Shown one piece after another: positions 31,518 to 62,183 of a stretch of 64,000 bases of DNA (positions are counted from its first letter, which is position 1; each line of letters starts with the position of its first letter). This stretch comes from Zanthoxylum bungeanum (lineage: Eukaryota > Streptophyta > Magnoliopsida > Sapindales > Rutaceae), in assembly GCA_019454045.1 (NCBI GenBank), contig SKCR01035572.1:34665-98664 (forward strand), in the 5' to 3' direction. The notes beneath the pieces are model-generated. The model was not told the DNA's origin and ran no database searches. It saw only the letters and a list, made by a program, of their open reading frames with translations. The position numbers and the translations under genes were made by a program.

Positions 31518-34500
31518 TCAGATGAATCGCATGAGATGAACGACGTTCCAAATATTGCGGATGAGAGTCCCTTCCACGGTTTATAGCTTATAGGCTCCTC
31601 TCCAACAATTTTGGTGACGAGGTATTGACCTTCCCAGTTCGGTTCCAACTTACCGTCGCCAATCTCCTTTGTGTTCTAGAAAACTCTGCGCAGGACCCAA
31701 TCTTTTTCCTTGAGGTTCTGCTCATGAAATTTTTGTCAAAGTACTTGGCCATCCTCTGTTGGTGGGCAGCCAGTCGAATGGAAGCTTGATCCCTCACTTC
31801 ATCAAATGTATCGAGATTGTAATTCATAAGTTGTCGATTCGATTCCTCATCGAGCCATTGGTAGCGCGGGGATGGGATGTCTTCTTCAGTCAGTATTATA
31901 GCTTATGTTCCAAATGCCAGTGAGAATGGGGTTTCACTTATCGATGATCGGGTCGTTGTTCTGTAAGACCACAACACACCCGGGAGTTCATCCGCCCAAG
32001 CACCTTTAGCCTTCTCTAATCTCTTCTTTAAAGTACTCAAAATCATTTTGTTAGACCACTCGTCTTGGCCGTTTTCTTGTGGGAAACGTGGGGTCGAAAA
32101 GCTCAACTTTATACCCCAATTCTTGCAGAAATCTTGAAAGTGATGGCTGATGAATTACGAACCATTATCAGTCACTATTTCCCTTGGTATGCCGAACTGA
32201 TAAATGATTATTCTTCCAGACGAATGTTTGTGCCTCTTTGTCGCGTATCCTGTGAAATGATTCTGCTTCGATCCACTTCGAGAAGTAATTCGTAAGCACA
32301 AGCATGTAGACTCGCTGTCCTAGGTCGGCTGGGAGTTTCCCGACGATATCCATTCCCCACTTTATGAACAACCAAGGAGATAAGATGGGATTGAGTCTTT
32401 CTGGTGGGAGATGTGAGACTGGAGCAAACCTTTGACATTTTTCGCACTTCTTAGTGAACTCAGCTGAGTCGGACCTCATCATAGGCCAGTAGTAGCCTGT
32501 CGAATGGGCACGGAGTGCCAAACTCTTTCCTCCGAAATGATTCTCACATTCCCCCTCATGTAGCTCCCTCAACACATGTTGCGCCTCGTCGTGTGTGAGG
32601 CATTTCAGATAGAGTCCTCAAAATGATCTTTTTAGCAACTGACCGTCGAATAATATGAACCTTGCAGACTGTCTCTGGACTTTTCTGGCTTGGATTTTTT
32701 CATCTGGAAGCACGCCTTCTTGCAAATATTTGATAATATGAGACATCCAAGTGTCGACTGAATTTACTGAGGCGGCCATTCTTTCTTCTTTCCAAATTGC
32801 TGGCCAATTCAAGTACACCACTGGTATTGAACGTGGTTTGTCTCCCTCCATCGTTGAACCGATTGTGGCCAAAGCATCGGCTTGGGAGTTCTCGCTTCTA
32901 GGGACTTGGGTTATAGTGAGTTTCTCAAAGTCGACTGAATATCTTTTACCTTTTGTAAGTAGGATGCCATATGTGGTCCCCGAGTGTGATACGACCCATG
33001 GATCTCATTGACAATTAGTTGTGAATCAGACTTTACTTCTATTTTTATAGCTCCGAGTTCTTTAGATAAGGACAACCCTGCTATCAGCGCCTCATATTCT
33101 GCCTCGTTGTTGGTGACTCTGAAATCGTACTTGATTACTTGTTGTAGAACTTCGCCTTTCGGAGTGGTAATCATTATCCTGAGGCCACAATCCTTTTTTT
33201 TACTGGATCCATCGACTGCAAGCTTCCATGGAATGGTCGAATAGACATAGTAGACTTCTGTTTCTACTGCTGCAAATAGGCCGGGAGTAAAGTCGGCTAC
33301 AAAGTCTGCTAAGGCTTGTGATTTGATGGCGGTCCGGGGCAGGTACGTGATGTCGTGTTCTCCGTGTTCAACCGCCCACTTCATCAATCTCCCTGATAAT
33401 TCTGGTTTATGGAGAATGCTTCTCAAATGGTATGTAGTATATAGGGTGATTGGATGTCCCTGAAAGTAGGGTCTAAGCTTTCTTGCAGCCGTTATCAAAG
33501 CGAATACCAACTTCTCCATTAATGGGTAACGTGATTCTGCTCCCAGCAGAGCCTTACTTATGTAGTAGACTGGGATTTGTTCTTCTGCCTCTTCTTTGAT
33601 TAAGACTGCACTAACTGCGTGTTCTGAGACTTCTAGGTAGAGATAGAGCCTCTCGTTGTCGAGTGGCTTTGACAGCAAAGGTGGAGTGGTAAGATACCGC
33701 TTGAGTCCCTCCAAAGCTTCTTCACAAGCGGGAGTCCGTGGACTTGGAGATGAACCTGTTCAGTGATGCTATCATCCCCGCTAGTCGCATGACATCTTTT
33801 GGACTGGAAGGTGAGGGGATTTCGAGGATTGACTTGATTTGGTCTGGATTTGCTTCGATTCATCATCGAGTGACTACGTATTGTAAGAATTTCCCTGAAG
33901 CAACACCAATGCACATTTAGTAGGATTTAACTTCATCTCGTACCTGTCAATGATGTTGAAGGCTTCTTCCGGGTGCTCAAGATGTTGTTTCGATTTAGAA
34001 GACTTCACCGGCATGTCATCTATGTAAACTTACATTGTCTTCCCAATTTGATTAGAGAACAAATTATTAACCAGTCGTTGTTATGTGGCCCCCGTATTCT
34101 TCAGGCCGAATGACATAACCTTGTAGCAGTATATGCCTCGGTTGGTGACAAAGGCTGTCTTCTCTTGGTCGTCTGGATGCACGAGTATCTGATTGTAGCC
34201 TGATTACGCATCCATGAAACTCAACAATTCGTGTCCAGATGTAGCGTCGACCATCAAGTCTATGTGTGGTAGTGGGAATGAGTTCTTCGGAAAGGCTTTG
34301 TTTAGATCCGTAAAGTCAATACAGACTCTCTACTTTTCATTATTCTTTCTAACAACAACCACATTGGCAAGCCACTCTGGAAACTTCACTTCTCTAACTG
34401 CTTCATTCTGTAATAATTTCTGAACCTCCTAATCAATGATTTGGTTTCTTTCGGGGTCGATTCACGTTATGTCTTTGTGAGACCATGCAAAAATATCGTG

Positions 34501-36197
34501 TCGACTCTTCAGGAATTCGATCAAATCAGCTCATAATTTGGGATCCAAGTTAGCTACAACATGTGCCTTGTGATCCGCAAATTGAGAGTGAATTTGGATA
34601 TCGTCAAGCTCCTCGAGACTTGGTAATGTCGGCTCTGTGCCACGAGATCCATTCTGTAATTGCTATGCCGACTCGGCTTTCACCTTTAAGGTCGTCTGGT
34701 AGTAGCTTCTGGATGCAGATCTATCGTCTTTAATCTCCTGAATCCCCCAACTGGTAGGGAAATTAAAAACTTGGTGATAGGTGGATGAAACCGCCCTCAT
34801 CTCATGAATCCAAGATCTGCCCATGATAAGATTGTAGGCTGAGGAGCTGTCCAAGACCAAGAAAGTGGTCATTTGTTTACTCCTACTACGAAGACTGGGA
34901 GTGATATTTCTCCCATTGTGAATTTTTATTCCCCACAAAATCCAATCAGCACTGTCGTCCGTCTATTTATTTTGTCCAATTTGGTCCCCATGTCCGCGAA
35001 GACTGTGGAGAAAATGATGTTTGCTGAAGAGCCCATGTCAACCAACATTTGTTTGATCAAAAAATTGGCCACTTGCAAAGAAATAACTAGGACGTCGTGG
35101 TGTGGATTCAAATTATGAGAATCTTCAGTGTCTGGGAACTCCATGGTTAAGTTAGTGAACATATTATCTACTGACATCGTAGTGTGAGAAACATTAGCAA
35201 GACCTCTCGAGTGTCGTTTGACCGTTGAATATGAGACTCCATTAATTTCTGATCCTCCTGAAATAACATTAACAGTATTGTTAATTGGTGGAGGTGGGGT
35301 CAGAGTCTCTCTTTGACCGTGTCTCTCATCCCTTCGTGCCAATGTGGCTTTCCCATTCTCAGTGAGCAAATCCCTTAGAAACCTTTTGTTTAACAACTCC
35401 AGGACCTCCAATCTCAAAGCCACACACTCTGTGGTCGTATGACCTTAGTCTCGATGGAAATCACACCATTTTCTGGTATATTTTTTCGTAGAGCTCTCAC
35501 TGGAATGTGGGGGCCATTTCACTTCATTTCAATTTTCTTTAGTACCAAAACCAATTCACCTAGGAAAATTGTAAAGTTATAGTCTGATAGCCTGGGCTTG
35601 CTTGCTGGTGCTTCCTCCCGGTTTTTATAAGGCCTTGGTCGTCTGTCAAATTCTTTGTGGAAAGTCATACGTTCTCCTCTCTGTTGGGTCCTCATTTCCG
35701 GATGAGCAACCATGTCGTGTCGCCTGGAAATAGCTGGCCTTCTATCAATTCGCGAGCTATCAATGTCTTCTCTTCTTTTGTTCCTCTTGGCCTCTTCCTA
35801 ACTTGTTTCGACTTGGGCCCGCGCTATGGCCTGGTCCATCATGTAGTATTGGAACTTGGTTAGTTTCTTGTAAAGTCCACTTTCGTAAAGCAGTCCATTC
35901 CGGAAAGCCTCCACCGCCGTAGGTTGATGGAGATCCCGATTATTAATTCTCTCCTTGTTGAAGCGAGCTACGTAGCTCCGCAATGACTCATTTTTCCTCT
36001 ATTGGATGGTATTGAGATCATATGTAGTCTTCTCAAGCTTGCATGAACTCGCAAAGTGTTGTACTAAATTGTTTGCTAGTTGTTGGTAGGACTAGACGGA
36101 CCTGTAAGGTAGATTGATGAACCAGGTGAGGGTCGGTCCTGCCAACGTTTCTCCAAAGTATCTGCATATTCCAGCTTCTCATTGGCTTGGTGACAAG
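31518..36197 (-). pseudogene. Tat gag-pol, C-terminal gag to integrase
   Basis: Read leftwards. Gag C-terminal part (about 36190-35100); aspartic protease with LVDMGSSANI near 35030 and a LIMGRSWIH flap-side block near 34830. Reverse transcriptase at 34400-33715 has FTDLNKAFPKNSFPLPHID and YIDD codons at 34026-34015. The gypsy RNase H (33700-33330) reads YLEVSEHAVSAVL, so the usual first Asp is Glu. The second RNase H (33245-32920) has VDGSS, NNEAEYEAL and SDSQL, the archaeal-type catalytic blocks. Integrase has an H/C zinc segment (CEKCQRFAP, about 32440) and a core and C-terminal part ending with TGA at 31518. In-frame stops in RT (in place of conserved Trp and Tyr) and several frame changes make it non-functional. 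The gag N-terminus is at 43955-43434, beyond the nested element. Confidence 0.88.
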
Positions 36198-38174
36198 TAA
36201 CCGGTGCAATCACACGCGTATAACGCAATCGCATGTATCGTTCAAGTAGTATAAAAATATCGATCCCACGAGGACTTAATTCCTACTGTTGTTATTAATT
36301 ATTGATACTATTTATTTACAGGTATCTAATTATAGGGAGAAGAGAATGATTACTTTTGGTTGGTTGAATATGGATTTGATAAATAAAATACTTAAAGACA
36401 CAAAAGAAAATACTAAGGAAAATAACAAAAGACTCAAAGATCTAGTGGTGTGACTCCACACAATATTATTATAAAGATGATTGATTCTCTTATATATGTG
36501 TAATAAATCAGTTTGCTAACCTGGAACATGAAATTATGCAAAATCCTCTGTCGATGGTCAGCTGCACATACCCAGTATAATCCAATTAAACCATATGTCT
36601 ATGTTAACCCAATTACCTGGATTCATTAAGATCAAATTCCAATTGTGGCTACCCCCGCCCGACATGTATATTCCTATCATGTAAGGAAATCTATTAAAGG
36701 ATTATTTATCCTCAAGGAAGATCGTGAGCTATTGAATCTAAGGCTGAAACCTAAAATCCCTATGTCTAGTTCATTTTAAGTTTACCACATCAATCTTATT
36801 GGTGATCAGACAACAAGAAGCATTAAGCTTAAGACTCAATAAACAAACTAAAGAATTATCCCTATGTCTAGTTCATTTTAAGTTTACCACATCAATCTTA
36901 TTGGTGATCAGACAACAAGAAGCATTAAGCTTAAGACTCAATAAACAAACTAAAGAATTATCCATAAAAACAAAATCAATTATTAAGTGTGGATATTATG
37001 TTTCATCACTTCCCTAGAATAAAAATAAAATGATGGGGGTTGGGGGATCCACCTTTACTATTCCTAATTTAAAAATCTCCCTTATTATAATATAGAATTT
37101 ATCTGTGATATTGTCAGCCGACCATATAGGTGGTATCCTCATTAAGTCAGATTTTAATTAAGTCCAACCAGCCATAAAGGCGGTATCATTATTTGTCCAT
37201 AAACCAGCCATATAGGCGGTAATTATCTGTCACCTAAAGACCGGCCATATAGGCGGTGTTACTTTATGTCAAATAAATAAAACCAGCCATTATGGCGGTA
37301 ATTCTTTTAATTTGAATTATAATTTATATATTATAATTAAGGGAGATTAATCTAAATTAAAATAATAAAAGCTTCACCCTTCCCCAAGTGGAAATCTAAC
37401 TACTAACATAAAATAAAAGAGAAGAAAAAGAAACTAGTACTATTACTGAAAATAAAAATGCATAAATTAAATTACTAAAAATAAACACACAAGATGCAAT
37501 CCTCAAATTCCTTACAAAAACCTAAGGAAATCATAAGAATTACAAATAAAATGGCTTGGTATTTATAGGAAAATCTAAAAGCTTCCACCAATTTCTCCAC
37601 CGATTGCTCCACCGATTGCTCCACCAGATATGGCACCAAACATGGCATCAAACATGGCACCAAACATGGCATCAAATATGGCACCAAACATGCAAGCATG
37701 TTTGGTGGAAGTTTGACAATTTTTATTTTTATTTTTATTAATATTATTTTATATTTTGAAAATGAATATAGTAATTACTCAAAATATACTGGATTTTTCA
37801 TCAATTTCGGCCTTCAAAACTTCAGAATTCGAAAATATTTAAATCTTTAAAGTTGTAGATCTTTGAGGTTTCTTTAATCTGCAACTTGAATTAGCTCAAT
37901 CGGATATTAGATGAAAAAGTGATGACCAAAATACGAAACATGCGCAAAATGGAATTAAAGACTGCACTTCGTGACACGTACAGTAAATTTTCATTTTTGA
38001 CTTTTTTTCCTCCGAATTTCATCATTTTAGCCCCGAGTTGATTCCATTAAGTCCTAATATTATTTTTATCTGCAAAATAAATAAAAACATATCAAAACGT
38101 TCATAAAACTCGAGAAACTATACAAAATATTAGGTTAAATGAGTGGGAAATAGTGATATAAATACTACTCATCA
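36198..38174 (-). repeat. 3' LTR of the LOG-bearing element (1,977 bp)
   Basis: Plus-strand ends are TAACCGGTGC and ACTCATCA. It contains ~540 bases absent from the other LTR, including a 102-bp perfect tandem duplication (36756-36959), about five CCAGCCATATAGGCGGT-like units (37115-37310), and a CATGGCACCAAA minisatellite (37628-37692). Confidence 0.88.
36756..36959. repeat. 102-bp perfect tandem duplication
   Basis: ATCCCTATGTC at 36756 and 36858 starts two units that appear identical along their length. A third ATCC starts at 36960 but diverges. Perfect identity suggests recent origin or an assembly duplication. Confidence 0.9.
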
Positions 38175-39424
38175 CACCCCCAAACCTAACATTTTGCTAG
38201 TCCTCGAGCAAAACACTAAATAAAATAACATAAAAATAAATTAAGCTAAGCCATTTTCGTAGGGATCACGGTTGCATTTAGCGTATGCAACAAGCCTTTA
38301 AACCTCTATGTGTCCCTAGTGGACGAGTTGTAGTCTCGTGAGGGTTTACAGCAATGATACCCACAAACATTTTACAAAAGTAAAAAGGTAGTGAAACTAA
38401 TGCACACAAAGCAAAAAGACAAGAGAAAATAGAATAAAGAAGCTTGTGACTAATCAAGTGAAACTTCTACTCCAAGTTAGTAGTTATTTTCTTTCTTTTT
38501 AAATTACCGAATAAGTAAATTCTCCGATTATTTTTACCATTCTTCATATACACAACCAACAAAATATTATTCAACTCATTTTTCCCACAATAGTCACAAG
38601 TGCAGTTGAGAAGAGAGTAATATTTTTGTCCTAAAGTTTTATCAGAATTCACACCTTTTTGTAGCAATGGAATAATTTTTTCTGATTTTTTATTTTATTT
38701 TTCCTTTGATTTTCTGATTTTTTTTTATTTATATACAATATCTTCCGTCTATGTAACGAGCTTTGGGCCAGTGACTCCCAAACCAGTTGGTTTTAGGGCA
38801 CTAGGTGTTAAAACACCCATACGGACTTAATAACTCGGATCTCAGACATTTTTTTCACACTTTTTTTCTTCTTTTTTTTTTCTTCTTTTTTTTCTTTTTT
38901 TTTACTTCATTGCCATTTATAGATGTTTCCTCCAATTAAACTAGATCACCGAATATTACAAACTCTTCAATTACAACTCATGTCTGTATGTTACTATGCA
39001 TATTGATAGTACATGCCAACTGAGCATATGAAGATCCATTTTAATCAGTTTTATGGAGAATTTACAAATTAAATAATTTAAAAGGAAATAAACAAAAATT
39101 AACTTATTTCGAAAATGGATTGAAATACGTCTCAAGAGTGGAAACTCCTTACACAACTATCTCTCACCAATTTCACCTTTTTAGTCAAAATTAAAACACA
39201 AAAACGCAAAATATTTTTGTAATTTATAAAAAAAAAAATTCAATTTTTTGTATTTTTCGAAAAAAATTTGGACTAAAAATAAAAACATCAAACAAAAAAC
39301 AAGATACTAATCAACTAATTCCCTCCCCCAAACCTAAATGAGACATTGTCCCCAATGTCTTAAACAAAAGAAGAAGAGTTTAGAAGATAGTACCTGGTTA
39401 GTTGAAATTCACCAAAATAAAATA
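38175..39424. other. 3' untranslated part of the LOG-bearing element
   Basis: It begins with the purine tract (minus strand, next to 38174) and contains long T-rich runs (38855-38905). Near 39330-39360 the minus strand has GACATTGGGGACAATGTC and TTTAGGTTTGGGGGAGGG, phrases common before the 3' end of Tat/Athila-type non-autonomous elements. No coding sequence. Confidence 0.55.
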
Positions 39425-40073
39425 TTACCGATTAAGATCTATGTCCAATTTACGCTTCTTACCACAATCGCTATCTGACCAGTTCAACTTGGAAAGAATG
39501 GGGTCAATTTTTGGTTCAAAGGTTAGGATTTGGTCAATTAATTCATCGGCCTTTGTTGCAGTCATGAAAATATCTTGCACTGATTTTGTGACGAACTCAT
39601 GTCTTTTGGCTTCCGCAAGAAATACAAACAGAAAATCGAAAAAATGTTCAATGTTGAGTAATCCAATGGGCTTCCGATGAATGTTCAAACTCGCCCATGA
39701 TGCTACTGTGAATATTTCTTCAATCGTTCCAAGCCCACCTGGTAACGCAATAAACGCATCTGCAGTATTGATCATTTCATGGAGTTGTTCAGACATACCT
39801 GATACGATGCGTTCATCTCCATTTGTTTGTCCGATTAAGTTTTCGTCCGTCAAAGTTTTTGGAATGATTCCCAAAACATGACCGCCACCATCCTAAACGG
39901 CTTTTGAAATGCTTCCCATTAATCCAAGATTGCCACCGCCATATACTAGGTGCATATTTCGTTATGACTCTCCCCAATTCCTTTGCAGCCTCAATGAATT
40001 CTGGTTTATTACCAGAGTTGGATCCACATAAAACACAAATTTGCTTGAATCGCTGCTGTGAAGTTTCTTCCAT
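39425..40073 (-). pseudogene. LOG-like: Captured LONELY GUY-like cytokinin riboside 5'-monophosphate phosphoribohydrolase, intronless
   Basis: LOG enzymes release active cytokinin bases from their riboside monophosphates. Here ATG at 40073 begins an N-terminus of the family type (FKQICVLCGSNSGNKPEF). A frame change of uncertain size near 39950 leads into YGGGNLGLMG. A TAG at 39895-39893 interrupts the next helix, and the rest is open to the stop at 39425. It includes the diagnostic PGGLGTIEE (consensus PGGxGTxxE) and ASWASLNIHRKPIGLLN. Total length, about 216 codons, equals a full LOG protein, yet no intron is present although plant LOG genes normally have several. This points to capture from spliced RNA. 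It lies between the gag-like ORF and the purine tract of the element, in the element's sense. Two lesions make it non-functional here; intact relatives may exist elsewhere. Confidence 0.9.
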
Positions 40074-40792
40074 TTTCTCTCTCTTATTGGGTGTATATTT
40101 GGATGTGTCAAAGAGAGAAATGTAGAGCTGAATTTATAGAACCTGAAAATGGGTGAGTAATATTAGCACTAGTACCTGACAAATGACAATTATTAGATGA
40201 ACGTTAAAATAAATTGTGAAAAGTCAAAAAGTTTAGATCTTGTTGGCGAAAATCAAAGAAAATAACAAAAGAAAAGAAAATGAAAGCAATTATTAAGGCA
40301 ACGGAATTGTGTACGCAATATGCCACTCGCTTAGTATAAATTCATCAGGATGCGCCTCAAGAATTCATTCCTTACTCAGCCATCACTCATGAATTAGCTC
40401 TCATCTTTGCGATTGCCAAACACCATTCCTTTTGTCTCAAAATTCTCCGTTTGTGCTTTTTCTTATAAAAATAACACACAAAATTAAAAACTCTACAACA
40501 TGTATACACAAAATATAAAATTAGATATTAAAACAAATTGCATGGGTTGCCTCCCTGCTAACGCTAATTTTTTTATCTTCAGCCAGACGTGACTGAAATC
40601 CATCTGTCAAGAAGGTTTCAGCGTCGTTTTGGATGTCTGATTAAAGACATTCTCATGTGTGTTGCTTTTGAAGGGTCTCTTCCAATGGCAAGGTAGCAAA
40701 AAGAATTTTGTCTCATTCAATGCTTGTGCTACCTTTTTAGGAGGTCTCGTATGGTGCTTGACTTTGAATGGGATTTCCATTCTGTCAAGCTT
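40074..40792. other. Spacer between the gag-like ORF and the LOG copy
   Basis: The minus strand continues the gag-like reading past a TAG at 40793 to about 40608 (KVKHHTRPPKKVAQAL), then shows a LAGRQPMQF-like phrase near 40540 typical of the 3' end of the first ORF in such elements. The remaining ~450 bases upstream of the LOG start may include its 5' untranslated region. Confidence 0.45.
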
Positions 40793-41836
40793 CTAGGTGA
40801 TATCTCTAATTTGTACTCCCCGATACATTGATATTTCCCATGAATGCACTGGATCTTCAATTTGGTCTGTCATTTGCTCCTCATTTTTCTCTGCTTCTTG
40901 CTCCACCTTTTCTTCACATATGTATTTTAGGATTTCAGTGTTCGGTTCTTCATCTGTCATCTGTGAAATACTTGCTCCAAAAGTGTCAACTTGAGGATGA
41001 AAAGATGTGTCTGACATTAGGTCTGCATCCTCTAATCTGAGTGAAATGATTGGCTCAGGTAGATCTTCTTCAAACATTTGTGCAATGGACGCTCCAAGAT
41101 CTTCATTTTGAGGATATAGAGTTCCATCCTCAATTCTAGTTGGCACGAACAACTCTGCTTCTTCATCTGAATCAGAGTCTGAATAATCAAACTCAAATCG
41201 AGACTTCGCTAGTTCGGGTTCCTGAATTGATACCTCTGGTTCCTGATACTGCTCAGCCTCTTCCTCTACTAATGTGTCATCATGAAATGTTTGGTACTCG
41301 AAAGCTTCGTCAGTATCATCTGAAAATGCTCCTTGAGGTGTGTAGCTCTGATTTTCTGTTAATTGTCTCGTTTGTTCTGTCAGTATCTGAATGGATGCTG
41401 ATTGTCTTTGAATACTTTCGAGTTGATTTTGGACTGATTCAAGCATTGTATCCAACTCCTCATCTGGTTCCTTGTTCCAATCTTTGAGCATATCAACCAA
41501 TTGTTCTTCCTCTGATGGTTCTGATTGTTGATGAAAATCGTAGATAGATGGTGGATAAGATGGAAAATGTGATGGTTCTCCGTACCTTGAATGATTCTGA
41601 TAATTCTGCCACTCTGAAAAGTATATGCATTGATCGCTCGGGTGGTTACCATCACATATCACACATCTCCCCATTTCGTTCTGATGAGCAAATGTAGTAT
41701 TGCTTGGTTCTGATATCCAGTGATAGTAGTTGGGCTGGACAACAGGCCTCAGAAAACCGGACTGTTGCTCCCTGAATTGGGGTGTATCTTCTTATCGTAA
41801 AGCTCGTGATCTCTCAATCTCCCAATAATGTTCCAT
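40793..41836 (-). pseudogene. Acidic gag-like ORF of the LOG-bearing element
   Basis: ATG at 41836 opens a frame with one TAA near 41795; a second ATG at 41674 gives an uninterrupted 293-codon ORF. It begins with a CCHC-like knuckle, CVICDGNHPSDQC (Cx2Cx3Hx4C), similar to that of Athila/Tat gag. Then come Gln-rich helical repeats (SVQNQLESIQRQSASIQ) and a long Glu/Asp-rich region with two related blocks (LGASIAQM and FGASISQM). No protease or polymerase follows. Probably a relic of gag kept for packaging, but its function is not established. The reading originally went on beyond the TAG at 40793. Confidence 0.6.
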
Positions 41837-41948
41837 TTTTCAACCACCTGAAAACAAAAGAAAGAATAAAAATTATAGATAAAAATAAAGAAAATTAGAC
41901 ACAAGTAAATTAGATAGCTTCAAAATTAATAACTCAAGAAAAATAAGT

Positions 41949-41971
41949 CCCCGGCAATGACGCCAAAAACT
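41949..41971 (-). other. Primer-binding site of the LOG-bearing element
   Basis: The minus strand reads TTTTTGGCGTCATTGCCGGGG directly after the LTR, close to the Athila/Tat site TTGGCGCCGTTGCCGGGG attributed to tRNA-Asp. Confidence 0.65.
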
Positions 41972-43428
41972 TGACTGGTGCAATCACACGCGTATAACGC
42001 AAGTGCACGTATCGTTCAAGTAGTATAAAAATATCAATCCCACGAGAACTTAATTCTTACTGTTGTTATTAATTATTGATACTATTTATTTACAGGTATC
42101 TAATTATAGGGAGAAGAGAATGATTACTTTTGGTTGGTTGAATGTGGATTTGATAAATAAAATACTTAAAGACACAAAAGAAAATACTAAGGAAAATAAC
42201 AAAAGACTCAAAGATCTAGTGGTGTGACTCCACACAATATTATTATAAAGATGAATTGATTCTCTTATATATGTGTAATAAATCAGTTTGCTAACCTGGA
42301 ACACGAAATTATGCAAAAGCCTATGTCGATGGTCAGCTGCACATACCCAGTATAATCCAATTAAACCATATGTCTATGTTAACCAAATTACCTGGATTCA
42401 TTAAGATCAAATTCCAATTGTGGCTACCCCCGCCCGACATATAGGCGGTAATTATCTGTCACCTAAAGACCGGCCATATAGGCGGTGTTACTTTATGTCA
42501 AATAAATAAAACCAGCCATTAAGGCGGTAATTCTTTTAATTTGAATTATAATTTCTATATTATAATTAAGGGAGATTTATCTAAATTAAAATAATAAAAG
42601 CTTCACTCTTCCCCCAGCAGAAATCTAACTACTAAACATAAAAGAAAAGAAAAGAAAAAGAAACTACTACTATTACTGAAAAAAAAAATGCATAAATTAA
42701 ATTACTAAAAATAAACACACAAGATGCAATCCTTAAATTTCTTACAAAAACCTAAGGAAAACATGAGAATTACAAATGAAATGGCTTGGTATTTATAGGA
42801 AAATCTAAAGGCTTCCACCAATTTCTCCACCGATTGCTCCACCAATTGCTCCACCAGACATGGCACCAAACATGGCATCAAACATGACACCAAATATGGC
42901 ACCAAAAATGGCACCAAACATGGCATCAAACATGGCACCAAACATGCAAGCATGTTTTGTGGAAGTTTGACAATTTTTATTTTTATTTTTATTAATTTTA
43001 TTTTATATTTTGAAAATGAATATAGTAATTACTCAAAATATACTGGATTTTTCATCAATTTCGGCCTTTAAAACTTCAGAATTCGAAACTATTTAAATCT
43101 TCAAAGTTGTAGATCTTTGAGTCTTATTTAATCTGCAACTTGAATCAGCTCAATCAGATATCAGATGAAAAAGTTATGGCCAAAATACGAAACATGCGCA
43201 AAATTGGAATTTAGGACTGCACTTCGTGACGCGTACAGTAAATTTTCGTTTTTGACATTTTTTCCTCCGAATTTCATCGTTTTAGCCCCGAGTTGATTCC
43301 ATTAAGTCCCAATATTATTTTTATCTGCAAAATAAACAAAAACATATCAAGACGTTCATAAAACTCGAGAAACTATACAAAATATTAGGTTAAATGAGTG
43401 AGAAATAGTGATATAAAACCACTCATCA
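41972..43428 (-). repeat. 5' LTR of the LOG-bearing element (1,457 bp)
   Basis: Plus-strand ends are TGACTGGTGC and ACTCATCA. Compared with the left LTR it lacks ~540 bases, joined at a shared CAT (CCCGACAT/ATAGGCGG near 42440). Its CATGGCACCAAA minisatellite (42858-42948) has more units than the left copy. Confidence 0.88.
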
Positions 43429-43433
43429 ACAAG

Positions 43434-43955
43434 CCAGTTGACATCATCTTGTACTTGTAGTGTATTACATGGTCATCTCGATCCATCATATAGCTTCATT
43501 TCGGGTGGGCTAAATTTTTGTGGCAGTTTAACAGCTACAATTATTTCCATGAAAGGGGTGTCTGAAATCGCTCCAGCTCTGCTCTTCCTAATCGGCAACC
43601 TTACCTCTGGTAATCTGGACATGATTGCTTCTTTGAACTCTGTCATATCTCTTCTTATGATGGATGCAACTTGTTGAGTTTGGTCGAGAGAGGAAGTCGG
43701 GCCATGGAGATCTGGTGGATTGTCATTAGCCTGCCCATCTGATGTGGGCGGGACTGCTGGATTGCTTGGATTGCTTGCTTGACCAGGGACGTCGTGACGC
43801 TGAGAAATTGAGGACAACTGCTCCAACTATTTTTGTAGATTCACATTGGAGTCTCATATAGTCAGATTCTCCTCTTCTAAAGCTTGTAATCGTTCTTGGA
43901 GCATTGCGAGTTGTACTGCCATAGGGTCTGGCGCTTGTTCATTAGCAGAAGCCAT
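43434..43955 (-). pseudogene. Tat gag, N-terminal part
   Basis: ATG at 43955 lies about 60 bases after the primer site and starts MASANEQAPDPMAVQL with a short coiled coil. In-frame stops follow at about 43855 and 43827. Then the frame is open to the insertion point, including RRDMTEFKEAIMSRLPE and PQKFSPPEMKLYDGS, typical for the start of the Tat capsid region. It resumes at 36197 after the nested element. Confidence 0.8.
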
Positions 43956-47880: not shown

Positions 47881-48190
47881 ATTATAAAGCACAATGGTGT
47901 GTGAGGAAAGAGAATGAAACCAATGGTTAGGATTAAGAGAGATAATGTATCAAAATGCTATCTTTATTTGGCTTAATTGGCGGTTCAGATCATTTCATTA
48001 TAATCTAATGGCTGATAAAGAATCATTTCATTATAGAATCTCTATAAAAATAAAAAATGAAAACTACCAAATAAATTAAAGAATAAAATCATTTAATTAA
48101 AAAAATAAAATTAACAAACAGATTAAATAACAGAATATTAATCTCTCTATAAATTATGTAACACCGTACCGTAGGCACGGATAATATCTA

Positions 48191-48191
<1 letters not shown>
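47881..48191 (+). mobile_element. Probable non-autonomous Helitron (3' end clear, 5' end uncertain)
   Basis: The right end shows the Helitron signature: an imperfect hairpin CCGTACCGTAGGCACGG (48164-48180), then ATAATAT and CTAG followed by T (CTRR-T). The element lies between two (TA)n runs (to 47882 and from 48192), consistent with Helitron insertion between A and T in an AT microsatellite. The expected 5' TC terminus was not seen. It ends about 265 bases before the ferritin start codon. Confidence 0.55.

Positions 48192-48229
<38 letters not shown>
48192..48229. repeat. TA microsatellite in the ferritin promoter region
   Basis: A (TA)n run begins immediately after the Helitron-like CTAG end and stops at AAGATGGACAG. 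It is the only TATA-like sequence close to the gene, so the TATA function may lie in it. Confidence 0.75.
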
Positions 48230-48231
<2 letters not shown>

Positions 48232-48456
48232 ATGGACAGTTTCGAAATTTCGACACAAGACAAAAGAGGGCACAGGGGAGAGAAACTTGTCGGGGGAGGG
48301 GGAGCTTGTCAGGGAGTGGGGAGTAGTAAATTTCCCTCTTTATCTCCTTCTTCACTCTTCCACTTCATTATCACCACCATCACCATCTCACAGCAACCGT
48401 TACATTTCATTTCCTCTGTTTTTCAAATCCCATTTCTTCAAATCGAAAACAAAAGC

Positions 48457-50889
48457 ATGTTGCTCAAAGCATCTCCAGCGTTCTCGCTCGTTAGCCCACA
48501 AAAAGTGGCTTTAAATCCTCTATTTTTCTCTGTTTCTTCAGCTTCTCCCCTGAACTCAAGTCTCCGTTTTTCTTCACCGCTGAGTACTGGAACTAGCGTC
48601 ATGGTTTGCGCTTCAAAAAATGCTGACAACACACCCATAACCGGCGTCGTTTTTGCTCCTTTTGAAGAGGTGGAAAAGGAACTCGATTTGGTGCCTACTG
48701 TGCCTCAAGTGTCTCTTGCTAGACACAAGTTCACCGATCAGTGTGAGGCCGCTATAATGAGCAGATCAAGTGGGTTTTTTTCCTTTCTTTTAAACACTTT
48801 ATGCATATAAAGTTTTATTTTTTTCTCTAAAAGATTTAATTTTTTGTTAATTTGTGCATTATTTTGACATGGGTTCTTTTAGAATATTTTTATTTTGTGC
48901 ATGCAGTGTTGGTTATGTTATATGTATATGTTTGTGAAAATAGTTGGATTCCTTTTTTGACTTGTTAATTTTTAGGCTTCTTTAAAGTTGTTTTTCAGCA
49001 TTCGCTTAAAAAGCTGTGGATTTTTTGTGATAAAAATTGTCTTTTCTATCAATGTATTTTTTTTCCTAATGATTTGTTAATTTTTTGTGCTGTGACAGTG
49101 TGGAATACAATGTCTCATACTTGTATCATGCCATGTTTGCTTACTTTGACAGAGACAATGTCGCGCTCAGGGGTCTTGCCAAGTAATTTTGTTTTTAAAA
49201 AATCAGAATATGTTTAGTTTTTTAGCTTTCTCCTTGTTTTGGTTTAAGCATACATTTTATTTTGTGTTGTGAATAGGTTTTTCAAGGAGTCAAGTGAAGA
49301 GGAAAGAGAGCATGCTGAGAAATTGATGGAATATCAGGTGTTTAATTTGTTGCTTTCGTGGTTTTTTGTTAGTGTTATTATTTTTTTTGTTAATCTGTCA
49401 CTGGGTTGTGTGCTAATCTTTCTTGTTTTATAATCTTTAGAACAAACGAGGAGGACAAGTTAAGCTGCAATCGATATCGATGCCCCTCAGTGAATTTGAT
49501 CATCCTGAGAAGGGAGACGCTTTGTATGGTAAGTTTCATGATTCAAAGTATGCTTATCATAATGCTATTTTGACTTTAGATGAGTACTCCACCGATGAGA
49601 TGACTAATTTTCAACGATTAGTCCTAAATGCTATTGTGAATACTTTTGACTACAAAGGGTGCAATGGACTGAGCTGTATCTCAGCTCATTCGTGTTTGAG
49701 AAAATGGATTCAAGTTCAAATATTGGTGAAGTATTTAATGCTTCTGTTTTTGTCCAAGGTTTGTCCACCTGGTATTGCTGGTCCTTCAAGGATTCTGCTG
49801 TATTTGTTGCATGAGACTATGGTATATATGGAATAAGGAATGTTGTTTACGCACTTCTTTAAGGGGTGCAAGTCATTAGTCATTAAATATATTTGTTATA
49901 TTTGTATAAATGTGTCTGCAGATTGGAACAGGAATATAAATAACGTGTAAAATGTATAAAAGATAGGGTCTAAATATTTTATTACTTTATGCACTTGTGG
50001 TGGGTTGATGAATAATTGAATGAGCATGAACTAGATGAATCACTCTAGATTTTAAAATCAATTCAATTGTATCAATGCCTTATCAAAGACCGGAATGAGT
50101 GGTTCCTTTTACTTTGTTGACAATTAATTCAGTTGTGGGGTGTTTTTTACCAATTTGAACTGTCTTTATGATGCATGAGTGGTTATGAATATTTTTTGTC
50201 ACAAATTGTTTGCACTGCAATCATTCAGCCATGGAGCTTGCATTGTCTCTGGAGAAGCTAACAAATGAGAAACTCCTCAACTTGCACAAGGTGCGGCCTA
50301 TCTCTACTTAATATTGTACAACTTATGTGTATTACTTTCTTGAACATGGTATGATGTTAACTAATGTAGATAGTGTCATAGCCTTGTTCAAGCAAAGCTA
50401 TAATTTTAGAAATGCTAGTTTCTTTTTGGGTGTGTCGACTGTCGTGTGAATTTTTCTTGCCTACTCACTGGAGCCATGCTTTATTTTGGATCAACAGGTA
50501 GCTGTCGGTAACAATGATGTGCAGTTGGCAGATTTCGTTGAAAGCGAGTATTTAACTGAGCAGGTACAGAACAAGTTTTACATTTCATTCCTTGTTATCA
50601 ATTTGATTTTGTGCCATGGTAAAAGTGCTTTATAACTTCAAAATGTCATTTCAATTGTTTCCCTTATGCAGGCAGAATCCATCAAAAAGATCTCAGAATA
50701 TGTTGCTCAGCTTAGAAGAGTCGGCAAGGGGTTTGGTAAGAACCAAAATGAAATTCCCCTCAGTAATTAATATTACAATTTGATATGATCATCTATTATC
50801 TGTATTATCTTCTGTCTTCTCCTTCTAAACTGGCTGTTGTGGTTGGAATTTCAGGAGTCTGGCACTTCAACCAAATGCTACTCCACTAG
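48457..50889 (+). CDS. FER: Plastid ferritin, eight exons, one apparent frame-breaking deletion
   Basis: Ferritin stores iron as a ferric core in a 24-subunit shell, in plants mainly in plastids. Exons: 48457-48769, 49099-49182, 49277-49337, 49441-49528, 50229-50290, 50498-50563, 50672-50735, 50855-50889, all with GT-AG introns; eight exons are usual for plant ferritins. The start [14 protein letters not shown] with a Ser-rich stretch is a plastid transit peptide. The plant-specific extension ([14 protein letters not shown]) and ferroxidase helices follow ([31 protein letters not shown]), and the end is [11 protein letters not shown]. At 48756 the family's Asn-Glu-Gln-Ile codons lack one A of an AAA run (ATAATGAGCAG), which puts exon 2 out of frame. 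All other exon phases agree with each other. Either a true null allele or a base-calling error in a homopolymer. Confidence 0.92.
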
Positions 50890-53898: not shown

Positions 53899-55760
53899 AT
53901 GAAGAGGGCCATGACTTCTTCTACATCGATCATGTTCTTACCTTTCTTAACGCAATTAAACGACGCCGTTCACGGTTTCGACGTTCGACAACACCTTTCA
54001 ACTGTCACAAGTTATTTACCGTTTTGCCGCCAAAATTAATTTTTTATAATTTGTTTTAAGTTTATTTTTTTTATTATTGTATTTTTGTAATCGTATGTTT
54101 GCTTGTTTGTTAATTTATAAGCAGATACGACGTCGTGAAAGATGTTGTTGATAAAAGCTTTGCAGCTTCTGTAATTCCCGACGGATGTACACCAATTCAC
54201 TTAAATCTTGTGGTAATTTTTCTTTATGAAACTTATATTGCTGTTACATATATAAATATTAGAAGAATTTTTGTAGGTAACCATCCAAATACATAAGCAT
54301 TACATTTTTGTTTGATATTTAGTTATTAACAATGGCTGAATGAGTTAGTGGTGAGAACAAAATCAGTCTCATGTTATGAAAAACCCAAGGGATGAAATTG
54401 GAAGTAATTGTCTTTTGGGTTGCCAGGCGAGGCACGGGACTCGTGCGCCTACGAAGAAACGGATGATGGAGTTGGAGAGATTGGCTGATCATTTGGAAGT
54501 ACTTATAAGGGAAGCCAAAGAAAAGGGTTTGTCTCTACATAAAGTTCCTGGCTGGTTACAGGGATGGATGTCTCCTTGGACAGGGAGATTGAAGGGTGGT
54601 GAATTGATTAACAAAGGCGAAAGAGAGTTGTATGATCTTGGAATCAGGATTAGAGAAAAATTTCCAGATTTGTTTAGCGAGGAATATCAACCAGATGTCT
54701 ATCCCATAAGGGCTACTCAGGTTAGCTATCTTTTCTGTAATCATGTAATTATGCCTTATTCTGAGATGCTTCCTAAGTTTAAGCCATTGATTTCATGGAA
54801 TCCAATGGTGGATGAATTGCTCATTGTTAAATGCTACTTTGACTTTCATTTTCTACCAATAGATTGGATGAATATATGGATGATCCTATAATACCTTTTA
54901 CAGTATCACTTTTACATTTGTTTCTTCTCTGATGAACTAGGTTCCCCGGGCTTCTGCCAGTGCAGTAGCGTTTGGCATGGGGCTATATTTAGTGAGAGAG
55001 GGATTCTAGGACCTGCATGTCATCGAGCATTTGCTGTTACAAGTGAAAGCCGTGCAAGTGATATAAAGCTGAGGTTTCATGATTGTTGTGACAGCTACAA
55101 GGTATTAAACTATTAATGCGATTTGATGTTGGTTTTAAACAACATGTTAGTAACTTTTGGATTTTAGCTTTTAACTTTTAAGCAGGATATTAGTATTTAA
55201 TCTGGTTAAATTTTATGTTATTAGAGAATTACTTATTAATCAAGTTGGCCGTACATTAATCATATTATGTAAAATTCGCTACAAATATAAAGTAGTATTC
55301 GTCTCAACCAATGCTCATTTTCATCTCATGTCTGCAAATAAAATTGGCCCTTTCAGTTCTCTTTGATGGATGTAAAGAATTATACTGAATGATCTTCCCT
55401 TGTCACATCTCAAAATTTAACAATTGGCAAAATAATAAATTTCAAGTTAACAAAACAGCTCTTGATTTTGATATTCCGAAAATGTATGTGGTTAAATGGG
55501 TCTTTGGTCATAGAAGCTTGTGATGCTGTGGCCTTTTTTAACCCTTTAATTACTTGAAAGATATTATGATGCAGGATTTTCGGATAAGTCAGGAACCTGC
55601 AGTTGAAAGGCTCAAGGAACCGACTCTTGATAAAATTACCTCTTCATTGGTGAGGCGATATGAACTGAATTTCACAAGACAAGATATTTCTTCTCATGAT
55701 TCCAAAATTTATATGCAATTGAGTCATACTGATGCTGTGATATCCCCTTTGCTTTCAATT

Positions 55761-59534: not shown

Positions 59535-61854
59535 TCAAGGCTTCATAAATTGGTATGGCGGAGGAATCATCTTTCTCCCTTGGCAGCCTAAAAATGAAAT
59601 AAATAAATATTCCATCATATAGTTCATGAGCTTTTTTCATGGCATTTTTAAAAAACTTGTTCATGTTCACAAGGTAAAGTTTATCGCACTTACCTTCAAA
59701 GCCTCTCAGTTCAAGCTCACGCCATTCTTGAACCATGGCGCAGCAGCAACACATGAGATGAGTTAAGAAGTCATCACATGAACCACCCTGCAAAACAGAG
59801 CAGGTGGGTGGTTTTATCATTTTTAGTGGGTGTGTTTCAAAATAGGGTCAATCTGATCCGATTTGGTCGAGTTTCACATATAAAATTTATCGAGTTAGTT
59901 TTCAGTATCTGATATCGACTTTGACCCAACCTTAAATAGACATGTTAGGGGTGAATTGAAGAGCTGAATCTCATAAAATGGTCCGAAATTTTTTTATTTT
60001 ATTTTAAATAAATAAAGTTTATTTCACTTGACCATGTGTTCACTAGTAGTTTATAATTATAATCGATGTGAGAAAAAAAGATACCTGAATATCAAAAGTT
60101 TCTCTCAATTTCCCCCTAATGGAACAACTGTAACAGCAGCATCCACAGAAGATAGAATATGCCATGAGATTATTGATTGCTCGTTCACGTGCTGTAGAAC
60201 CAATGGAATAAGCAAAAGCTTCATCAAAATCTTCTTTTATTTTACCCTAACAAATGATGATACTCTATTCTATGAGCTTACATATTTTCCCTTTGGTCAC
60301 TGTATTAGCTATACTTGAAAATGTTCCACAGGGATAGATGCAAGTCTTCGAGCCTGCAGTTGTACAAAATTAAAAAAATAATAATAAAAAACAAACCTGA
60401 AAGCTCATAAGATTCTAGGCTAGCTACCAGCAATTTAATAGAACTCACTCAAACAAGGTTCTGTGAAACAACCAAAAAGATCAGCTTGCCACTCTGATTG
60501 AACTCCAGTTCTGAATCCCAGGTTCCCACTGTCAGAGTTCACAGCTCCGGTCCCATAACTGTGCCATAATCGTTTCATTTAGTATATAAACAGATCTCTA
60601 GTGTAGATGTCCGCACGTTTTTAGCATGCAATAATCGCGTTTTAAAGTACTAAAGTTTCAACACACACCCTGATATAACATTAGTGGGTTCATTAACAAG
60701 TTTCTTCATCTTCTTCCCTGGAAGCTCATTAACAACATTCTCTGTAACATCAATTAGATGTTCAATCAATTGGCACTGCTTGGTATCGTTGTTTGTTCTT
60801 GATCTCTGCAACTCGATATGTAGCTTCTCTTTTTCTTCCTGTAGAGCTTCCTGGAATCCCAATTCAGGATATTTTCTTGACAGTGAATTCTCCAATATGC
60901 TTGCATCTTTCGTTGAACGGTCAGGTTTTAATATTACATTTTGTGCTTCAGCATCCTCTTCATCGAGTGTGTACTCTCTTTGATCTGCTTCAATGGCTTG
61001 CAAGCCTTCCTTCAAATGCTGAGCTCATTCACCATTTCAATGAAAATGAGTTTGTGAAAGTAAAATTCGACAGGAAAATTAAAAAAAAAAATGAATTTTC
61101 TTTTTTGTTGCCAGTGGGTCTATTAGCTGTGTGTTAAAAGGGTTCAGTCCATGTCAAGGTCCCCATTGCCAGAGCCACCCAGGAGGTCTCTTGGGTAGGG
61201 TTAGGACCATACTAATAACAAAACTATGAGGGGTCATGGCTTCAAAGTTGGGTCGGCCGTCAAAACGGATAATATCTTTGCTGCTTATTTTGATATCAAA
61301 AAGAAGATATTTATATGGACTTGGGCCATATCAAGAATAACATCGTGAGGCACCAATACTTCGATATCTGACTAGTTGGGTTTAGCTGTTACACTCTTAG
61401 TTTCTAAAACATAAACAAAAAAGTGTTTTGTGGAAACAAAAAGAGATTCTACTGAGTGAATACTGACCTGCATACGAAACTCGTGAACCAGAGAAATCAA
61501 GGGCACGAGCCTAAGGTAACGATCAATCTCAGCCTGGACTTGGCGGAACTGATACACTACGCTCCACCCCATAGCAAGCATGTACATATAGCTATTGTCT
61601 CTACAGCTCTCGACCAAGTCGAGAGCTTTCTTCAAAGCCTCCTCCAAGCAATCCAACGGCTCCTTTATCGCTGGCAAATTCACCAGGTCCGTTGATTTCA
61701 ACTTCTCCAACAAGTTCCCTATTATCTGCACGTGCTCAGCCAGCTGCTCGCAGTTCCTTCGGTGGGCTGCCGCCTTTCGAGCCGATGATATGATCGTGTT
61801 CACAAGGCATACAGCATCTACTCCTGTTGTTGCCTGCAGTGCCAAGCTTGCCAT
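59535..61854 (-). CDS. MCA-like: MID1-COMPLEMENTING ACTIVITY (MCA) / cell number regulator 13-like protein, seven exons
   Basis: MCA proteins are plant plasma-membrane components for stretch-activated Ca2+ entry. Exons on the minus strand: 61854-61468, 61018-60669, 60558-60449, 60353-60282, 60191-60085, 59787-59694, 59587-59535. They sum to 1,173 bases, a whole number of codons (about 390 aa; Arabidopsis MCA1 and MCA2 are slightly over 410), with GT-AG borders and no stop. The N-terminal segment includes GVDAVCLVNTII (the Asp matches the residue reported as essential in MCA1/2) and CRDNSYMYMLAMGW. Exon 2 encodes a coiled coil (EALQEEKEKLHIELQRSR). Exons 3-6 form the Cys-rich PLAC8 domain (WQADLFGCFTEPCL, CGCCCYSC, CCCCAMVQEWRELELRG). 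The ATG at 61854 fits family starts; an upstream in-frame ATG at 61998 would add a Lys-rich extension and is less likely. The intact frame contrasts with the two neighbouring genes. Confidence 0.92.
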
Positions 61855-62183
61855 AGTGTTGCCGTACGTGTAGCAAGTTTGGAGAGAGATGTGTTTTTGG
61901 TGTTGAGTTTTCTTTTTGGGGTTATATTTCTTTGCTTTCTTTGTTTTGTTATTTTGTGTTTCTGCTTTTGAAATGTTCATTTTTAGTGGTTTACGCAATG
62001 ATCCACTGAAGTGTGAAACGATATAAATGAAATTCTATTTACACAGAAATTACATTTATATAAAATTGGGATGTAAAGTTTGTATCATCGCAAATATAGC
62101 ATATGGTGCGATTTTATTATTATTAATTATGGTACGCGTATGAAATGGTTGTTTACCTTATCATTTCCCCATCATACAATAAC
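61855..62183. promoter_or_regulatory. Upstream region of the MCA-like gene
   Basis: A+T-rich. A minus-strand TTTATATC near 62022-62029 could serve as a weak TATA element. Nothing else is identified. Confidence 0.3.

Follow-up and report, generated by a model that had tools for sequence, protein, structure and literature searches.

An intronless LOG-family gene as a probable long-term accessory gene of a Ty3/gypsy-type retrotransposon lineage in Zanthoxylum bungeanum

LOG domains inside Gypsy retrotransposons are already known in kind. A screen of 121 angiosperm genomes found YgdH/LOG domains in Gypsy consensuses of Citrus sinensis and C. clementina and, with a looser filter, of Populus trichocarpa, and that study presents the finding as agreeing with Steinbauerova et al. 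2011 (PMC9289625). Here we describe a LOG-carrying long terminal repeat (LTR) retrotransposon from Zanthoxylum bungeanum, found in a stretch of 64,000 nucleotides (contig SKCR01035572.1, positions 34,665 to 98,664 of the forward strand) that we call the window and whose own coordinates are used below. The element occupies 36198-43428 (7231 bp) on the minus strand, is flanked by ACAAG duplications, and holds a LOG homologue at 39425-40073. Citrus belongs to Sapindales, the order of the window's host. We consider it likely to be a decayed copy, without pol, from a very numerous lineage of Ty3/gypsy type, probably an Athila-like one, in which an intronless LOG gene has long resided as an accessory gene under selection.

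What this family adds to the known Gypsy LOG domains is a selection signal, a catalytic change and scale. The literature that we searched contained no study of selection, catalytic residues, copy number or a pol-less form for LOG-bearing Gypsy elements, and the word "cytokinin" is absent from the main text of three reviews or surveys of captured genes or extra open reading frames (ORFs) (PMC13317346, PMC7264820, PMC11963269).

LOG-carrying elements across the host genome

The window gene was assigned to the LOG family by its match to PF03641 (E=6e-31) and by an alignment to Arabidopsis At2g37210 (PDB 2a33) that is ungapped over 141 aa (E=1e-33). It is intronless and lies in sense orientation in the element, which reads, on the minus strand, from the right-hand 5' LTR through a site resembling a primer-binding site (PBS), a gag-like frame, LOG and a purine tract to the 3' LTR. 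Paired LTRs, a 5-bp target-site duplication (TSD), and PBS-like and polypurine tract (PPT)-like sites identify it as an LTR retrotransposon. A Pfam search of 38175-41967 in all six frames matched no pol domain (E<=0.01), so this copy is non-autonomous. It also encodes no working LOG, as a TAG in frame (39893-39895) and a single change of frame near 39960 disrupt the gene. A reading made from the letters of this DNA alone (the sequence-only reading) had described a TSD-bounded LTR element that carries LOG and lacks pol, in a copy with a frame change and a stop, and this description holds in all of its parts.

We searched the host assembly (3.96 Gb, 51709 contigs) with the LOG segment and found that all 40 scored places, the window copy included, match over 648-649 of its 649 bases at 92-100% identity. 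The candidates from a first look were far more numerous (6936 for LOG, 15019 for the LTR, 11461 for gag and 65966 for the protein), and these are not copy numbers. Twenty of the 39 other LOG copies were fetched with 10 kb of context and 19 as LOG only. In every one of the 20 neighbourhoods, the gag-like frame, the segment from that frame to LOG (UP), LOG, and the segment from LOG to the 3' LTR (DOWN) follow one another in the order of the window, which shows that LOG is linked with the element's other parts in a constant order. The sequence-only reading had expected a multi-copy LOG-bearing family with intact members, and both expectations are borne out: each of the 39 other copies examined matches at least 648 of the 649 LOG bases, and 18 of them keep an intact gene, with an ATG, a 217-codon frame of 654 bp and no internal stop. 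No relatives were found in viral contigs or in GTDB genomes.

Perfect and differing 5-bp TSDs were found for 6 of the 20 copies. LTR divergence lay between 0.021 and 0.073 in 16 of 17 measurable pairs; the value of 0.159 for L018 is probably due to wrong pairing, and at six loci a neighbouring copy is drawn into the LTR comparison, the 5' match there beginning at base 1. Elements appear to be chained in places: DOWN precedes the 5' LTR in 7 of the 20 fetched copies (L010, L011, L018, L020, L022, L024 and L025), which seemingly share LTRs. L011 and L020 have near-identical broken LOGs and flanks and are probably a segmental or assembly duplicate.

A second sample was seeded on the LTR and consisted of the 20 best of 39 other long 5' LTR matches, extended 2 kb upstream in the element sense. 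Eight of these were 3' LTRs preceded by DOWN, and LOG was present there in all eight, with two divergent genes (68-72%) and one of only 330 bp (L063). The remaining 12 places were 5' LTRs, solo LTRs or other. In one LTR-seeded locus, L062, a diverged LOG (72%) stands in reverse orientation and does not adjoin DOWN.

A later, independent insertion of LOG into this one element, with a TSD or poly(A) of its own, had been raised in the sequence-only reading, and we reject it. No poly(A) was seen 3' of the LOG stop on reading the flank, the longest word common to the two LOG flanks is 10 nt, a length reached by 18 of 200 shuffles, and the layout is identical in 20 of 20 relatives. A 9-nt word, CAGGTACTA, stands on both sides of the gene, 105 nt ahead of the LOG ATG and 28 nt beyond the stop; common words of at least 9 nt arise in 48 of 200 shuffles, and the pair is perhaps a faint trace of the event that first inserted LOG.

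Selection on LOG and the state of its catalytic site

The variant spectrum of LOG was compiled from 30 of the 39 copies, those of 654 bp and in register. Variants private to one copy comprise 36 synonymous, 111 nonsynonymous and 7 stop changes, which fits neutrality (p=0.71; approximate omega 1.10), and those found in 2-3 copies comprise 25, 49 and 3. Variants present in at least four copies number 43 synonymous and 23 nonsynonymous with no stop (p=4e-11 vs neutrality; approximate omega 0.19), and the spectrum of this class differs from that of the singletons (Fisher p=4e-8). Shared LOG variation thus shows purifying selection, while variation private to one copy seems neutral, as though frames were lost once an element has inserted. 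A gene that the reproducing copies require, and that is released upon insertion, gives such a pattern. Pairwise Nei-Gojobori (NG86) comparisons, for which 15 of the 20 copies were taken in, gave a mean nonsynonymous distance (dN) of 0.043, a mean synonymous distance (dS) of 0.158 and a ratio of 0.27 (0.32 among the 9 intact copies), a ratio that is a mixture of the selected and the neutral phase.

Other comparisons set LOG apart from the rest of the element. In the same 15 copies, LOG was the best conserved of the segments compared, with a mean pairwise identity of 0.938 vs 0.908 for UP, 0.906 for DOWN and 0.854 for the gag-like frame, which is only weakly constrained across copies. By codon position, variants in at least four copies fall 9/3/32 in LOG vs 53/45/72 in the gag-like frame (Fisher p=3.5e-4), and no third-position excess was found in UP or DOWN in the phase read. 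Distances in LOG correlate with those in DOWN (Mantel r=0.62, p=0.0005).

Constraint on LOG is also seen with a second subfamily. This subfamily is known from the four loci that were returned, L068-L071, and its LOG (PF03641, E=1.5e-36 in L068) shares ~76% nucleotide identity with the window type, with a dN/dS of 0.20 at a dS of 0.89. All four loci encode an intact LOG, an integrase-like piece, and a DOWN segment homologous to that of the window. The integrase-like piece, recognised by its motif and probably Athila-like, has an open frame of 163 aa in both L068 and L069 and of 27 and 50 aa in the other two loci. A literature search for the letters of an Athila motif gave no match. Each locus also has an ORF of 161-183 aa between this piece and LOG (L068:669-1220). 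The 183-aa ORF of L068 matches Carla_C4 (24.9 bits, cut-off 20.9, E 2e-5) and comes just under the cut-off of Viral_NABP. A frame of L070 matches Carla_C4 too, which places a cysteine-rich protein of plant-virus (carlavirus) type within a retroelement. The cysteine-rich ORF gave nothing below E=0.1 in a sequence search of PDB and nothing useful in PHROGs, and in window-type elements it was not found beyond two weak 20-residue matches in L015. On our reading, the second subfamily would consist of relatives that bear pol and have their extra ORFs behind integrase, and the window type would be a non-autonomous form. When a diverged relative served as the protein query, each of the 150 scored places proved to be a full-length single-exon frame; 132 had no stop, under a ranking that favours intact frames.

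The capture of LOG is old, because the two LOG subfamilies of this one genome differ by a dS of ~0.9. We built a LOG tree from hits of at least 149 aa only (105 of 120), together with the window piece and two Arabidopsis pieces. The window LOG falls in a 13-row clade of close relatives (100/97) within a 36-row clade, whose sister is a 70-row clade that includes named Populus LOGL10-like proteins; Arabidopsis LOG3 and At5g11950 lie outside. Three relatives in the Populus-type clade (P0093, P0097 and P0098) each consist of one 217-aa frame and come from contigs of 21-32 kb, so intronless copies look genomic in that clade too. Either an ancestor of the window and Populus clades may already have carried a LOG element or there may have been two separate captures.

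The catalytic site could be aligned in 103 of the 120 database relatives and was read as well in 19 open window-type copies. The catalytic Glu of PGGxGTxxE is kept in 19 of the 19, and the strict motif PGGLGT.EE in 15. At the position of the catalytic Arg (Arg155 in CgLOGII), these copies carry Gln in 17 cases and His and Lys in one each; the relatives have Arg in 85, Gln in 15 and other residues in 3, and the second subfamily (L068) keeps Arg. The Lys that neighbours the catalytic Arg is found in none of the 103 relatives, of which 102 have L, M, I or F there and one has D, nor in the window-type copies, where it is Leu or Ile in all 19. Alanine at either of these two positions abolished the activity of CgLOGII, a bacterial LOG (PMC5379747). 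Since the catalytic Arg is replaced, the LOG of the window subfamily most likely no longer hydrolyses cytokinin ribotides. The fold is predicted to persist: P0012, a relative identical to the L068 LOG at 211 of 217 residues, has a predicted structure (pLDDT 82.7) of LOG fold whose best PDB match is 2a33_B, with a TM of 0.95 by target. Our best guess is that the element LOG is a nucleotide-binding protein of LOG fold that has been turned to a role serving the element.

The proposed history, and the alternatives to it, can be weighed on these results. We suggest that a Ty3/gypsy-type lineage long ago took up a LOG-family gene free of introns and has retained it as a resident accessory gene immediately before the 3' purine tract, a position at which related elements carry env-like or other extra ORFs. 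Its protein would help the elements that carry it. A conserved leader block, TTTTCAGGTTCTATAAATTCAGCTC, lies at 40125-40149 on the minus strand, 52-76 nt 5' of the LOG ATG. The pattern TTTTCAGG-N-TCTATAAATTCAGCTC just 5' of LOG is exact in 14 of the 20 fetched copies and in L068 and has 1-2 mismatches in the other 6, and the shared cassette accordingly reaches 5' of the ATG across the conserved TTTTCAGGNTCTATAAATTCAGCTC block. The leader block could be the TATA box of a private promoter, or a 3' splice acceptor for an env-like spliced message; the LOG protein would then be made from the element, by way of the TATA-like leader in the one case and of a splice to the acceptor-like block in the other. 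A more specific form of this proposal is one that we hold only tentatively, as it is rather less than an even bet: LOG would be a retroviral-style accessory gene encoding a LOG-fold protein with a remodelled catalytic site, retained for very long (perhaps since before the host-Populus split) in hundreds to thousands of copies, which steers host cells by binding nucleotides of cytokinin or related mononucleotides, for instance by acting as a sink for them or as a competitor and not by producing active cytokinin, and which in one subfamily works alongside a carlavirus-type cysteine-rich nucleic-acid-binding ORF.

The sequence-only reading had proposed instead that a spliced LOG mRNA entered the element by recombination while it was being reverse-transcribed, so that the family could spread hormone-activating copies; we weighed this as a recent capture into one element whose family now spreads cytokinin-activating copies. 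The intronless, sense-oriented gene and the existence of intact copies agree with such a capture, as does the multi-intron structure of canonical LOG genes, for example those of peanut, which mostly have 7 exons and 6 introns (PMC13257298). However, no parental gene was found, the host's own LOG genes not having been searched, recency is contradicted by the dS between subfamilies of a single genome, and capture of a plain mRNA does not predict a leader block shared 5' of the ATG. The spread of hormone-activating copies is likewise doubtful given the residues at the catalytic site, and we regard this scenario as improbable. An element LOG that is still a true enzyme, raising active cytokinin wherever the element is expressed, has a somewhat better chance and is still unlikely. 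The retained Glu and PGGLGT.EE motif, the catalytic Arg of the second subfamily and the predicted fold all speak for it, but the residue beside the catalytic Arg is not Lys in any of the 103 relatives and Arg has given way to Gln in 17 of the 19 open window-type copies, changes at the two sites where alanine kills CgLOGII. Ordinary cytokinin activation is thus doubtful from the residues present, above all in the window subfamily.

Two further explanations concern the source of the constraint. It might belong to host LOG genes, if elements repeatedly re-captured them or if host LOGs converted element copies. That LOG is the best conserved segment, and that its distances are uncorrelated with those of UP, speak for this, but the same leader block recurs in 20 members and the second subfamily, LOG distances do track those of DOWN, and DOWN is homologous between subfamilies; we give this explanation little weight. 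The least probable explanation, and one that we reject on the variant spectrum, is that LOG is a neutral passenger hitch-hiking on one amplified master element. About half of the sampled copies are indeed broken and their singleton variants are neutral, yet the variants shared by at least four copies are mostly synonymous and free of stops, dN/dS is 0.20 between subfamilies, and the third-position bias of LOG exceeds that of the gag-like frame.

Several observations weigh against an old, selected accessory gene, which nonetheless is the explanation that we favour. Copies were ranked by similarity, and the intact counts of 18 of 39 and 132 of 150 are biased upward; a complete intact LOG was present in none of the eight LTR-seeded cases, although that of L051 is open over its matched part. 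The class of variants in 2-3 copies includes three stops, and the gag-like frame is also third-position-biased (74/53/92 at >=3 copies, p=0.005). LOG distances are uncorrelated with those of UP (Mantel r=0.06, p=0.36), and because LOG tracks DOWN and not UP, recombination between elements, or a gag/UP module with a separate history, is likely. The integrase-like ORF of L068 has no Pfam match. An autonomous LOG carrier is putative, because the stretches searched for reverse transcriptase (the window element and L014) showed none; a 3-kb extra stretch of L014 gave no Pfam match to pol at E<=0.01.

Structure of the window element and its surroundings

The TSD copies of the window element were read from the sequence at 36193-36197 (left) and 43429-43433 (right). 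The remaining features lie on the minus strand. The 5' LTR (41972-43428) measures 1457 bp and the 3' LTR (36198-38174) 1977 bp, so that the left (3') LTR exceeds the right by ~0.5 kb; a perfect 102-bp tandem duplication at 36756-36959 is present in the 3' LTR and not in the 5' LTR. The pair differs by 57 substitutions at 1430 aligned sites (Kimura two-parameter distance, K2P, 0.041), which under two assumed rates would put the insertion at ~1.6-2.9 million years ago.

Six nucleotides inward of the 5' LTR, at 41948-41965, lies the PBS-like stretch TGGCGTCATTGCCGGGGA, a putative primer site of tRNA-Asp type; TTGCCGGGG occurs in 8 of the 20 fetched members. The gag-like open frame (40793-41791, 332 aa) includes the zinc-knuckle-like CVICDGNHPSDQC; it has no Pfam gag match, and a comparison with PHROGs gave nothing useful. 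UP (40140-40792, with GGGAGGCAACCC at 40555-40544) is common to all 20 members. DOWN (38175-39424), common to 20 of the 20 members fetched at 10 kb, ends at a purine-rich (G-rich) tract, GGTTTGGGGGTG, read directly at 38175-38186 and adjoining the 3' LTR. It also holds a palindrome-like motif, GACATTGGGGACAATGTC, at 39342-39359, with the pattern GACATTG.GGACAATGTC in 10 of the 20. Rfam gave no match in the window at gathering scores.

The LOG element seems to be nested in an older Gypsy-type element, presumably of Tat type. The interval 32911-33759 holds RNase H domains, RVT_3 among them, in the orientation of the LOG element (minus strand), and a protease-like frame (34926-35444) and a gag-like frame (43473-43826), both also on the minus strand, were recognised by eye only and have no Pfam match. 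Ordinary genes nearby are represented by a ferritin-like frame at 48175-48810, whose closest named protein is from Melia azedarach (74% over 47% of the query), followed by Mangifera, Xanthoceras and Pistacia, which points to Sapindales, and by frames related to a branch-2 histidine phosphatase (His_Phos_2; 54355-54891) and to an MCAfunc-domain protein (61372-62034).

Comparison with known elements

If variants were selected in source copies and became neutral after insertion, as the spectrum indicates, then manipulation of host cytokinin or nucleotide signalling by a retrotransposon becomes directly testable. Among plant genes annotated as single-exon "LOGL10-like", some may be accessory genes of retrotransposons, with altered catalytic sites.

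The closest described systems are the YgdH Gypsy elements of Citrus and Populus, which like the window element have a LOG-family domain inside a Gypsy element. Their consensuses were built around reverse transcriptase, whereas the window element has no pol (PMC9289625). Its 5-bp TSD follows the rule for plant LTR elements, among which tRNA-Asp is one of the non-chromovirus primers, and extra ORFs are reported in most OTA elements (PMC6317226). Athila elements share with ours the extra ORFs and the 5-bp TSD, and in the second subfamily a putatively Athila-like integrase ORF directly precedes the extra ORFs; they differ in that no Athila ORF-1 or other env-like domain was found by Pfam in our elements, where LOG occupies that position.

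Host-type enzymes fixed as extra ORFs through rounds of replication are also represented by Phalaenopsis Gypsy elements with an ORF for an ALKBH5-like m6A demethylase. That enzyme was active in vitro (PMC9289625), whereas the LOG described here has an altered catalytic site in one subfamily. Captured genes in plant LTR elements are often viewed as fragments or passengers. In this family, the gene of a phytohormone enzyme is conserved best among the segments compared. Maize Bs1 is likewise a plant LTR element with host gene sequence; its transduced segments include no full-length ORF (PMC13317346), whereas the family described here carries a complete LOG that is constrained across divergent subfamilies.

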